Origin: Pirellulales bacterium
GTDB taxonomy: Bacteria; Planctomycetota; Planctomycetia; Pirellulales; Thermoguttaceae
Direction of reading: 5' to 3'
NCBI GenBank assembly: GCA_016928165.1
Contig: JAFGLH010000150.1
Span: 1 to 64,000 of the forward strand
Length of the DNA: 64,000 nt
The notes under the pieces are model-generated. The model was not told the DNA's origin and made no database searches. It saw only the letters and a list, made by a program, of their open reading frames with translations. The position numbers were made by a program, and so were the translations under genes. Positions 8,084 to 48,399 of the stretch are shown in pieces. Each line of letters starts with the position of its first letter. Position 1 is the first letter of the stretch.

Positions 8084-8126
8084 GTTGGGGCGGCAGTGAT
8101 CCCAGCACTGCCGCCCCAACTTTTTT
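8084..8126 (+). terminator. intrinsic terminator, perfect 15-bp stem plus T6
   Basis: GTTGGGGCGGCAGTG-ATCCCAG-CACTGCCGCCCCAAC-TTTTTT, 40 bp after the stop at 8043; arm resembles palindrome family D. Confidence 0.85.
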
Positions 8127-28293: not shown

Positions 28294-29967
28294 TCACCTC
28301 ACCAATCCCATCTCCCTGAAGTTGGGAAAGAAGGGGAAAGGAATATGTACGTATGGAATCCGGTCCCAGGAATGGGGCCAATATATGAACAGGGCCTTGC
28401 CGATCAGCAACTCGCGGGGAACATAATGGTTGCCTTGTCCCCAAAGCCGGCCGTCCTTGCTAAAGGCGCTGTTGTCGCCGAGGGCGAAAAACTGATCGGC
28501 CTCCAATGAAAATTCGACGTGGCGGCGCAGTTTTGACAGATCCCGCGGGAAAAAGACTCCATCGCGGTCGAGCGGATAAACAACGTCGTAGTTTGATTGA
28601 TCGTCGGCGTCCCCTTCGATGGCGATGTAATAAATGTCGCGCAGAACGCATAAATCGCCGATTTCCACCGCCGCGCCGACCGACGCCACGCCGACGGGTT
28701 GCAAATCTCCGTCGTTGGGCCAAACGTTTCCCAAGTTTTCGTCGTAGTCGGTCGCCGAATCGAACTCCACGAGCCGGCCGTCGATCCACAGCAGCATTTG
28801 GTTGTCGCAGTTGCCGAAGAGGACTTCGTGCCGGCCGGGACCGCGAAGGGCGGTCGCCGCCGCGGGACGGAAGCGCCTCATGTCGTTTCCGCCGATCGAA
28901 AGGGTCGCTTTTCCCGTCGAAACGTCGATGCGGCAGCGGAAATCCCGCCCCCCTTTGCGCAACTCGAAGATCAACTCTCCGCTCTCGCCTTGCACGTCCA
29001 CCGTGCAGCGCAGGACCAGGTCGCCGACCCAATGTTGGCCAAGACTGTTCGGCGGCGGGGCCGGATGCTGGCCCATCTCGCGGCTGGTGTCGTAGGCCTC
29101 GAAGTCGGTAATCAATCGCGGTTTGACTTCTTCCGACACGATCCCGTTGTTCCGGTAGTAATCGCCCCATTGCTCGTATGATGGGACGCGGTGTTCGTAG
29201 CGGAGCCAGTTTTCGCCCTCCCCGTCGGTTTGGAACGCGACGTGGTCGTCGCATTTCCAATTTCCTTCCCTTCGCCACCGGTCGGGCCAGCCGAGCGCGG
29301 CTATGCGGGGCATATATCGGTTGTCGAACACCGGTTGCAGCATTGCCAGCAGTTTATCCGGCGGCTTGCGTTCGAGGTGGAAGTCGGCGTCTTCCTTTCC
29401 GTCGCGGCTGATCCATATATTGCCGTCTTGGATGCGGACCGTCTCGTTCGGCAGGCCGATCAGACGCTTGATGAAGTTCGTATCCGAATTGGTCTTCTCG
29501 TCGCCCGGAAATTTAAAGACGATCACGTCCCACCGCTCCGGCTCGCGGAACTGATAGATCAGCTTGCCCACCAGTATCCTGTCGCCGCTGTACGACTTTT
29601 GATATTCCTTGAAATCGTACGCGCTGAAATCCTTGGCGTTCGGCGGCGGCAGCGCGGCGGTGTATCGGCACATCGGACACGTGCCGGCGGCCACCGGCGC
29701 GCCGCCGGGTTCCACTTCGCGGCTGGCGCTGAGTTGATAGGGGCAGCCGCACCGCGGACATACCAAATCCTTGTGGAGGCCCATCAGCGTCGGGGCCATC
29801 GAGCCGGTGGGAATCACGAACGCCTCGGCCTCGAACGCGCGAAACAAGAACGCCAGAATAAAGGCGATGACGACCGACTCGATCGTCTCGCGGACGGCGG
29901 CCGAGGAGAGGACGTGGCCGTGGGAGGGGGATTGCTGCTGTTTATGCGGAGTGTATTTTTTGCTCAT
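28294..29967 (-). CDS. lepB: signal peptidase I, enlarged (zinc ribbon plus LamG-like insert)
   Basis: VIPTGSMAPTLMG; FIKRLIGLPNETVRI; FALGDNSAFSKDGRLWG; inserted CPRCGCPY...GTCPMCRY. Confidence 0.9.
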   Translation of the reverse strand: MSKKYTPHKQQQSPSHGHVLSSAAVRETIESVVIAFILAFLFRAFEAEAFVIPTGSMAPTLMGLHKDLVCPRCGCPYQLSASREVEPGGAPVAAGTCPMCRYTAALPPPNAKDFSAYDFKEYQKSYSGDRILVGKLIYQFREPERWDVIVFKFPGDEKTNSDTNFIKRLIGLPNETVRIQDGNIWISRDGKEDADFHLERKPPDKLLAMLQPVFDNRYMPRIAALGWPDRWRREGNWKCDDHVAFQTDGEGENWLRYEHRVPSYEQWGDYYRNNGIVSEEVKPRLITDFEAYDTSREMGQHPAPPPNSLGQHWVGDLVLRCTVDVQGESGELIFELRKGGRDFRCRIDVSTGKATLSIGGNDMRRFRPAAATALRGPGRHEVLFGNCDNQMLLWIDGRLVEFDSATDYDENLGNVWPNDGDLQPVGVASVGAAVEIGDLCVLRDIYYIAIEGDADDQSNYDVVYPLDRDGVFFPRDLSKLRRHVEFSLEADQFFALGDNSAFSKDGRLWGQGNHYVPRELLIGKALFIYWPHSWDRIPYVHIPFPFFPNFREMGLVR

Positions 29968-30054: not shown

Positions 30055-31512
30055 CTACTGAATATACCGGATTCCGGCCGGATTCGGAACGCTAAATCTC
30101 CAGGTGGAAAATGGGTTGACTGAAATCGAGGGAATGGCGCACAACGGCTTTCCCACCAACAAGTCGGCCCCGACCGCCCCGCCGTCGGGCCAGTGGCGGC
30201 TGTCTTCCGAGACGGGGCTGTTGTCGCCCAGCACGTAGTATTCCCCCGGCCCGAGCCGCGTCGCGCCCCGCGAGGCGACGCCGATCGGCTGCGTGTAATA
30301 AACGTCCCGATACACCCGCAAATCCTCGACCGTCGCTTCCATCCCCTCGGCCCCTATCGCCAGAGGGGCGGCAACGGGCGACTGGTTTTCCTCCGCAATG
30401 GGCCGTGCGAACACCGTTTTCCCGTCGATGGCCAATAAGAAGCAGCGGTCGAAAAGCGACGCCTCGATCAACCGCCGTCCGCCCCCGCCGAGAACCACTC
30501 CTTCCTCGCCTCGAACTTCATACGCCAGCCGATCTCCGTCGAACCGCAGCGTGGCCTCGAACCGCTCGCCGCCGTCGGTCGCACGGACGTGGAACGACCC
30601 CCGGCCCGACTCGCAGGTCAGCCGCAACGAAAGCAACAGGTCGGCCACGGCGTGAACGTCCTCGTCGCGGCGGGGGCGCCGCTGGTTGTAGCCGTAAAGA
30701 TCGAGAACGGGCGAGGCGACGAATCCGCTTGAGTCTCGCCGACCGTGATGGTAAACGAGCCAGTCGATCGGCTCTTTGTCGTTGCCCGCCCGGCAAACAA
30801 ACCGCCTGTTGTCCCACATCCATTGGCTTCGGCTGTTTTCCGGTTGCCACTGAGGCAGAAAGGTCGTTTTCGAGCTGGTGCGATGAGTGTTGGGGTGACA
30901 GTTGTTCTGCCACTCCGAATTTACCGCGAATCCAAGGGTGGCAGTACAACTGCCACCCCAACGATAGGAGCGATAGGCGGCGTCGTGTACCGGGACGGCC
31001 AAGGCCCGTTGTTGCTCCAAGGTTTTCCGCGCGATGCGTCCGTCTATATATACATCCCCGCGGCGGATTTCGATTTCCTCGCCGGGCAATCCGACGATCC
31101 GCTTGAGCACGATTTTTTCCGCCCGCGTCGGCTGGCGCAGAGCGGCGACTTCCCAACGACGCGGCGCCCGCACGGAGAAAGTCGCGCGGTCGATCAACAA
31201 CCGATCGCCGCGGACGCGCTCGATTCGTTGCAGATCGTTTTCGGCGTGTCCGCAGTTGGGACACACGGTCCTCGGCGGCGGGGGCGGCCCGTCCGCGCCG
31301 CAGTTGAACGGGAATCCGCAATCCGCGCAGACTACCTTGCGGTGATCTCCGAGGGCGGCCTCCGCCATCGATCCGCCGACGACCCGGCAGGGAGCAACCA
31401 GGCCTTTAAGCAGCCACGTTTCGACCAGCAGCGTCGCCAGCACCAAGTACGCCGTCCACTCGATCAGGAGCCGGGAAGGCGATCGTCCGGTTGTTGCGGC
31501 GGAGACGTTCAT
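30055..31512 (-). CDS. signal peptidase I paralogue, enlarged
   Basis: VGGSMAEAALGDHRKVVCADCGFPFNCGADGPPPPPRTVCPNCGH; VLKRIVGLPGEEIEI; VLGDNSPVSEDSRHW; start inferred (MNVSAATTG). Confidence 0.87.
   Translation of the reverse strand: MNVSAATTGRSPSRLLIEWTAYLVLATLLVETWLLKGLVAPCRVVGGSMAEAALGDHRKVVCADCGFPFNCGADGPPPPPRTVCPNCGHAENDLQRIERVRGDRLLIDRATFSVRAPRRWEVAALRQPTRAEKIVLKRIVGLPGEEIEIRRGDVYIDGRIARKTLEQQRALAVPVHDAAYRSYRWGGSCTATLGFAVNSEWQNNCHPNTHRTSSKTTFLPQWQPENSRSQWMWDNRRFVCRAGNDKEPIDWLVYHHGRRDSSGFVASPVLDLYGYNQRRPRRDEDVHAVADLLLSLRLTCESGRGSFHVRATDGGERFEATLRFDGDRLAYEVRGEEGVVLGGGGRRLIEASLFDRCFLLAIDGKTVFARPIAEENQSPVAAPLAIGAEGMEATVEDLRVYRDVYYTQPIGVASRGATRLGPGEYYVLGDNSPVSEDSRHWPDGGAVGADLLVGKPLCAIPSISVNPFSTWRFSVPNPAGIRYIQ
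30889..30962. repeat. palindromic element family D inside signal peptidase CDS
   Basis: GTTGGGGTGACAGTTGTTCTGCCACTC (30889-30915) and GGGTGGCAGTACAACTGCCACCCCAAC (30936-30962). Confidence 0.88.
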
Positions 31513-31625
31513 GCGTAAATCCGTGCGGCGCGCGATACCCCCTACTTGCGGAGGGGACGCAATGTTGCAGTTATATACTAGAGTTTTGTAGTAACGCAAT
31601 CTCCATATAACCGTTTTTTCGGCCC

Positions 31626-47187: not shown

Positions 47188-48399
47188 TTGCCTCTCTCGC
47201 GTATAATTGAACGGTTACAGAAGATGCGACGCAGCGAAATCCTCAATTGGCTCCGAGAAACCGATGCCGGCCGGCTGGAAGAACTCTGGCGGCTGGCCGA
47301 CCGAACGCGGCAACAATACGTCGGCGGCGAGGTTCATCTGCGCGGACTTATCGAGCTTTCCAACCATTGCGTCAGGCTCTGCGGCTACTGCGGCCTGCGG
47401 GCCGGAAACACCGCTCTGCAAAGATACCGCATGTCCGACGACGAGGTGCTCGATTGCGCCCGGCGGGCCGTCGAATACGGCTACGGAACCGTGGTGCTCC
47501 AGTCGGGCGAAGACCCGCTTTTGACCCGCGAGCGCATGAGCGGTTTGATCCGGCGAATCAAGGCCGAGACGCCGATGGCCGTCACGCTTAGCCTTGGCGA
47601 GCGAGCGGACGACGAGTTGGCCGAGTGGCGCCGCGCTGGGGCCGACCGCTACCTGCTGCGGTTCGAGACCTCCAACCGGGAATTATTCGCGCGGATCCAT
47701 CCGCCCAGGGCCGACCAAATCTCCCTTCTCCCGCAAGCGGGAGAAGGGTCGGTGTTTAGAACGGCCGCTAAACGAAACAATCGACTGGCGATCTTGGAAA
47801 CGCTCCGAGACTTGGGTTACGAGGTCGGCAGCGGCGCGATGATCGGCATCCCAGGACAAACATACGACGACCTGGCCGACGACATTGAACTGTTCGGTCG
47901 ATTGGATTTGGACATGGTCGGCGTCGGTCCGTATTTGCGCCATCCCAAAACCCCGCTGGCCGATCGGCGCAACTGGCCCGAGGCGCCCGAGGGAGAACAA
48001 GTCCCGGTCGATGAAACGATGACTTGCAAAGTTGTCGCCTTGACGCGGCTGGCATGTCCTCGCGCGAACATCCCGGCCACCACGGCGCTGGCGACGCTAA
48101 ACACCGCAAACGGGCGGGAATTGGGGCTGGCGCGCGGGGCCAACGTGGTGATGCCAAACGTTACTCCCAAGAAATACCGTATACTATATGAGATTTATCC
48201 CGACAAAGCCTGCATCGCCGAGACCGGTCGAGAGTGTCGCCGATGCCTGATTGAGCGGATCGAGGCCCTCGGTCGCCGTCTCGGCTCGGGCAGAGGCGAT
48301 TCGCCCAATTATCAACAACGTTCGGCGGCCGACGGCGCCGGTCGGGGTGGCGGTCCAACTGCCGCTCCAACGAGAGAAATGCGAGGAAAAAAATGTTGA
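47188..48399 (+). CDS. hydE: [FeFe]-hydrogenase H-cluster radical SAM maturase HydE
   Basis: Radical SAM CVRLCGYCGLRAGN; GYGTVVLQSGEDP; GYEVGSGAMIGIPGQTYDDLADDI; start could be the in-frame ATG at 47224. Confidence 0.92.
   Translation: MPLSRIIERLQKMRRSEILNWLRETDAGRLEELWRLADRTRQQYVGGEVHLRGLIELSNHCVRLCGYCGLRAGNTALQRYRMSDDEVLDCARRAVEYGYGTVVLQSGEDPLLTRERMSGLIRRIKAETPMAVTLSLGERADDELAEWRRAGADRYLLRFETSNRELFARIHPPRADQISLLPQAGEGSVFRTAAKRNNRLAILETLRDLGYEVGSGAMIGIPGQTYDDLADDIELFGRLDLDMVGVGPYLRHPKTPLADRRNWPEAPEGEQVPVDETMTCKVVALTRLACPRANIPATTALATLNTANGRELGLARGANVVMPNVTPKKYRILYEIYPDKACIAETGRECRRCLIERIEALGRRLGSGRGDSPNYQQRSAADGAGRGGGPTAAPTREMRGKKC
47721..47773. repeat. composite palindromic insert (family C plus half of family E) inside hydE
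   Basis: CCCTTCTCCCGC-AA-GCGGGAGAAGGG (47723-47748) followed by GTTTAGAACGGCCGCTAAAC (47754-47773). Confidence 0.8.
48341..48371. repeat. palindromic element family D half-unit in hydE 3' end
   Basis: GTCGGGGTGGCGGTCCAACTGCCGCTCCAAC, similar to GTTGGGGTGGCAGTTGTACTGCCACCCCAAC. Confidence 0.65.

Follow-up and report, generated by a model that had tools for sequence, protein, structure and literature searches.

The signal peptidase I locus and its palindromic element

The window, i.e. the whole stretch of 64,000 nucleotides that was analysed, carries two tandem signal peptidase I genes on the minus strand (Table 1). The open reading frame with the element scores 74.5 bits with PF10502 and 60.6 bits with TIGR02227, both above cut-off, and runs through the palindrome: the identity as signal peptidase I and the peptide quoted in the first-pass annotation both hold. 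The family hairpin is absent from the neighbouring paralogue, as had also been claimed.

Table 1. Coordinates of the genes and palindromic elements described in the text (window positions)
Feature	Position	Strand	Remarks
Tandem signal peptidase I paralogue	28294..29967	-	without palindrome
Signal peptidase I gene (Peptidase_S26) with insert	30055..31599	-	PF10502, TIGR02227; probable start ATG at 31512-31510
REP doublet (REPIN), family D	30889..30962	-	74 nt; in frame in the signal peptidase I gene
3' REP (gene orientation)	30889..30915	-	GTTGGGGTGACAGTTGTTCTGCCACTC; inverted relative to the 5' REP; 2 stem substitutions
Spacer	30916..30935	-	20 nt; TTGGATTCGCGGTAAATTCG on the gene strand; partly conserved among the doublets of this genome
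5' REP (gene orientation)	30936..30962	-	GGGTGGCAGTACAACTGCCACCCCAAC; head GTTG, loop TTGTA
Family-D-related palindrome	8084..8120	.	GTTGGGGCGGCAG...CTGCCGCCCCAAC; outside predicted genes
Degenerate family D singlet	48341..48371	.	3 stem mismatches; last codons of the radical SAM gene 47224-48399

Read on the plus strand, the element consists of a 27-nt hairpin, the spacer and an inverted second 27-nt hairpin, with the arms exactly at the positions that had been assigned to them. The stem of the 5' REP has 9 bp (GGGTGGCAG/CTGCCACCC) and is perfect. The outer arms of the doublet are 25 nt long, 24 nt apart and 92% complementary and, because each arm is also a hairpin on its own, the earlier label 'double hairpin' is correct. 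As a single strand, the element folds with -24.9 kcal/mol, compared with -9.5 +/- 2.5 kcal/mol for shuffled sequences (z = -6.1), and none of 200 shuffles folded as well. Its identity to the working consensus of family D is 96% over 74 nt, with the consensus being drawn partly from the window copy.

Family D and its probable transposase link in the genome and its relatives

In the window's genome (G000; 269 contigs totalling 3.6 Mb, 88.5% complete), the core GGGGTGGCAG has 145 exact sites, versus 5 for the reversed control: what the first-pass annotation had named family D is indeed a dispersed family, and the window element is one of its copies. BLAST finds 75 places in G000, including full-length copies at 72-85% identity and many single hairpins. 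Our catalogue, compiled from retrieved stretches of the genome, lists 85 distinct copies, nine of them doublets and 76 singlets, the latter mostly of 31 nt. A GTTG/CAAC head is present at both ends in 57 of the 76 singlets, with loops such as TTGAA and TTCAA, and the 31-nt singlets probably are doublets that have collapsed through loss of their interior.

Together with the relatives, 49 doublets are available: their modal length is 74 nt (22/49), conservation ends sharply outside GTTG...CAAC and the GTTG head is found in 46-49 of the 49 at each of the left-end positions. With 27-nt units, a 9-bp stem and many dispersed copies, family D falls within the definition of REPs (imperfect palindromes of 20-60 nt), and the 49 doublets have the features of REPINs: an inverted REP pair with a short spacer and a fixed length that forms a long hairpin. 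The palindrome at the beginning of the window is related to family D and differs in having a C-G instead of a T-A pair in the stem and a longer loop.

The 13-mer GTTGGGGTGGCAG was searched in G000 and its relatives (about 60 genomes, one Pirellulales family) and is abundant in only seven of them (G000, G001, G002, G005, G017, G049 and G052), all from one Pirellulales family; the remaining genomes have 0-3 matches, near the level of the reversed control. A scan of genome contigs found family D in MAGs of Pirellulales/Planctomycetota and in one labelled Nealsonbacteria. This MAG (JABMRB01, L212 and others), named Candidatus Nealsonbacteria bin.20, corresponds to G017, a genome assigned to the same family as G000, and the label is probably wrong. 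In G049, many doublets (L145, L148, L155, L220 and others) have the 74-nt core enclosed by a further inverted repeat (TCCCAAAACCAT...AGGTTTTGGGA), perhaps reflecting a longer mobile unit.

Contig C17 of G052 encodes a protein of 177 amino acids that matches NF047646 ('REP-associated tyrosine transposase') with 114 bits (cut-off 80) and the TnpAREP structure 4er8 with E = 2e-7. Its sequence includes THMH, the HUH motif, and EYIHNNPVKAG, which fits the RAYT motif NP(L/V)(R/K)xG (PMC2817692). Family D REPs lie on both sides of this gene, the arrangement expected of a cognate RAYT, and this was found in G052 C17 only; the RAYTs inspected in the other family D genomes have no adjoining family D copies. 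The link between family D and a RAYT comes from this one genome. In G000 (88.5% complete) no RAYT flanked by family D REPs was found: the sole RAYT found in this genome (C83) has no family D REPs nearby and a different palindrome, TGCGTTCCCATGCGGAGCATGGGAACGAG, just downstream. Since this is the only RAYT found in G000, the enzyme belonging to family D is either absent from the assembly, no longer present in the genome or too far diverged, and the mechanism in the window's lineage is therefore deduced from a relative.

Other palindromes accompany RAYT genes in these genomes. The RAYT genes of G000 (L187) and G001 (L181) adjoin a CGTTCCCACGCGGAGCGTGGGAACG-type palindrome, present on both sides in G001 and only downstream in G000. 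The RAYT of G017:C906 (L314:1-1320) is flanked by a different palindrome (CGGGTGGCAG...CTGCCACCCG) with a stem resembling family D, possibly a related REP-RAYT pair. Two IS200-type TnpA genes (L061 and L062), identified in a search with Y1_Tnp (PF01797), were considered as mobilisers and rejected: neither is flanked by family D.

A dispersed 74-nt unit with defined terminal inverted repeats could also be a MITE, moved by a DDE-type insertion sequence via these repeats and with target duplication, and the additional outer inverted repeat (TCCCAAAACC...GGTTTTGGGA) of some G049 copies would suit such an element. However, the best 9-nt flank match at the signal peptidase site is 7/9 (P ~0.18), i.e. 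there is no significant target duplication; for the same reason the exact ends of the insertion are unproven. In addition, no autonomous element bounded by family D ends was noticed in a non-systematic look, the gene flanked in G052 is a RAYT and each arm is a REP-like hairpin by itself. We consider an origin as a MITE improbable.

In-frame copies in signal peptidase I and in other genes

The REPIN codes for about 25 amino acids (approximately residues 197-221) of the 498-aa signal peptidase translation. All 23 orthologues lack the insert and align cleanly on both flanks; two of these are from the same genus and have 66% identity. An orthologue with a conserved peptide and no DNA palindrome, the observation that the first-pass annotation had named as speaking against its reading, was looked for among the 23 and none was found. 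The net gain relative to the orthologues is 30 amino acids and the element has only 74 nt; the 16 extra nucleotides are therefore flanking gain or divergence.

The AlphaFold model used was built with 24 sequences (a run with three sequences had a pLDDT of 30) and has a mean pLDDT of 82 and a pTM of 0.81, with values below 50 at residues 1-21 and 198-226 only. A membrane helix is predicted at residues 25-48 and is followed by the S26 domain, and the catalytic residues Ser61 and Lys150 (498-aa numbering) are invariant across the 24 aligned sequences. As the low pLDDT coincides with the REPIN-encoded stretch, the rest is well modelled and both catalytic residues are kept, the insert reads as a tolerated, disordered surface loop, and the enzyme has presumably retained its activity despite the insertion.

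About nine of the 85 G000 copies lie inside genes predicted with a simple home-made codon-usage caller, compared with 79% coding DNA (binomial P ~3e-41), so that family D of this genome is predominantly extragenic, as REPs are. Of 87 copies from six further genomes and a lone contig, three are within predicted genes; the higher in-gene rate of G000 is suggestive only, since Fisher's test gives P 0.08. The insertions in signal peptidase I, HypF and SpoU were compared with orthologues, and those in the other genes are based on ORF reading and Pfam. In terms of Pfam matches, the Sua5 and HypF_C domains enclose the HypF doublet, the SpoU singlet separates the substrate-binding from the methylase domain and a singlet in a kinase gene comes after the kinase domain; the copy in a FolC-like ligase is inside the Mur_ligase_C match. 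At the HypF loop, G001 and G002 have palindromic sequences of other kinds, and in G005 the loop is short. At the SpoU linker, a family D REP is also present in G002 and there is none in G001. The degenerate singlet in the radical SAM gene of the window codes for GRGGGPTAAPT. This singlet, the in-frame copies outside signal peptidase I and the connection to RAYTs and REPINs go beyond the first-pass annotation.

It is very improbable that the insert in signal peptidase I is a functional protein module with an incidental palindrome, in which the two cysteines serve as a disulfide or metal site in an extracytoplasmic part of the protein. The insert does introduce two cysteines, and the S26 domain does come after the predicted membrane helix, but the peptide is found in no orthologue (0/23), the stretch is disordered in the AlphaFold model and the DNA belongs to a mostly extragenic repeat family. 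The disulfide role that the first-pass annotation had suggested for the cysteines finds no support: they are merely what the REP encodes in the frame used (WGGSC... / ...NNCHPN), and in-gene copies in other proteins are read in different frames, free of cysteine (VGVAVELPPQ). A structured regulatory RNA, terminator or attenuator of the signal peptidase operon would account for the strong hairpin but is the least probable reading of all, given that the element is in frame, in one gene of one species only, has no match in Rfam and gives no hit in a terminator scan.

Several further repeats were seen alongside family D. The HypF linker (L365, L370 and L329) has three different palindromic sequences at one place in three congeneric species. 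A second family (CTCCCCTCTCCCGCAAGCGGGAGAGGGGCCGGGGGTGAGGGC) has 33 close copies in 324 kb of G000: four tandem 54-nt units are in frame in a PQQ beta-propeller gene (L352:737-950), and two copies are in frame in the FolC-like gene that also bears a family D REP (L048:1048 and 1537). In the window, the radical SAM gene (47224-48399) has an in-frame palindrome at 47698-47796 (CTCCCTTCTCCCGCAAGCGGGAGAAGGGTCGG), which is similar to this second family and encodes the peptide ISLLPQAGEGSVFRT. The peptides DATDGRGF, DASDGRGF and NATDGRGF follow family D singlets in three unrelated genes (L016, L342 and L353), which suggests that a third repeat often adjoins family D. Tentatively, and with more doubt than confidence, several palindromic families (family D, CTCCCCTCTCCCGCAAGCGGGAGAGGGGCCGGGGGTGAGGGC and others) might repeatedly supply the proteins of this Pirellulales genus with new segments, with permissive loops of conserved enzymes being re-entered in frame by different palindromes in each congener, as at the HypF loop and the SpoU linker.

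Proposed origin and comparison with known systems

Taken as a whole, the most probable reading by far is that the window element is a REPIN that entered the signal peptidase I gene, was mobilised by a RAYT and is tolerated there as a loop. The insertion would have occurred after the lineage had split from the nearest sampled congeners, and an HUH-type RAYT would have moved the element in trans, as single-stranded hairpin DNA. It would have survived because the number of bases added by insert and flanks is divisible by three (net 30 codons), no stop occurs in the frame that is read and the insertion lies in a variable surface segment that separates two parts of the S26 fold, where the additional 25-30 or so residues form a disordered loop. 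Both the transposition mechanism and the near-neutrality of the insert are what we infer from these data.

In-frame palindromic repeats are already known; family D itself is undescribed as far as we found, with no earlier description in the open-licence literature. The signal peptidase gene provides a clear in-frame REPIN in a conserved gene, with insert-free congeneric orthologues, beyond Rickettsia and the genomes surveyed before, and one relative (G052) supplies a testable RAYT/REP pair. The contrast between congeneric species at identical loops is of additional interest: since three congeners are unlike one another there, mobile palindromes that add segments to proteins could be studied in this lineage as a natural experiment. 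In practical terms, annotation will mistake segments of this kind for lineage-specific domains.

REPs, REPINs and RAYTs are established (Bertels and Rainey 2011, PMC3116915; Nunvar 2010, PMC2817692). Family D shares with these systems the short palindromes, their pairing as inverted, spacer-separated doublets of fixed length, the mostly extragenic position, copy numbers of dozens to hundreds in a genome and, in G052, a RAYT flanked by REPs of the family. It differs in its host (Pirellulales), in that no cognate RAYT was found in G000, in that most G000 copies are collapsed 31-nt singlets with heads at both ends, and in its head, which is GTTG rather than GTAG/GTRG. The GTAG super-family is defined by the head GTAG or its variants GTRG, GYAG and GTMG (PMC3733652), and family D is outside this definition because of its GTTG head.

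Intragenic REPs have been described by Di Nocera (2013, PMC3733652), including in PVC bacteria such as Opitutus terrae: monomers and dimers are in frame in conserved genes, dimers encode 20-30 amino acids and the segments are thought to occupy flexible linkers or loops. Family D likewise has in-frame monomers and dimers in conserved genes; the family, the host and the genes (signal peptidase I, HypF, SpoU methylase and FolC-like ligase) are different. The classical in-frame case are the Rickettsia palindromic elements (Ogata 2000, 2002), here taken as they are summarised in PMC10969869 and PMC3733652. By these descriptions, family D resembles them in being a palindromic repeat that is translated in frame within unrelated conserved protein genes, in our case signal peptidase I, HypF and SpoU by comparison with orthologues. 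In contrast to these elements, the longer of which have about 150 bp, family D copies have 31 or 74 nt, are extragenic in about nine of ten cases and have a link to a RAYT in a relative.
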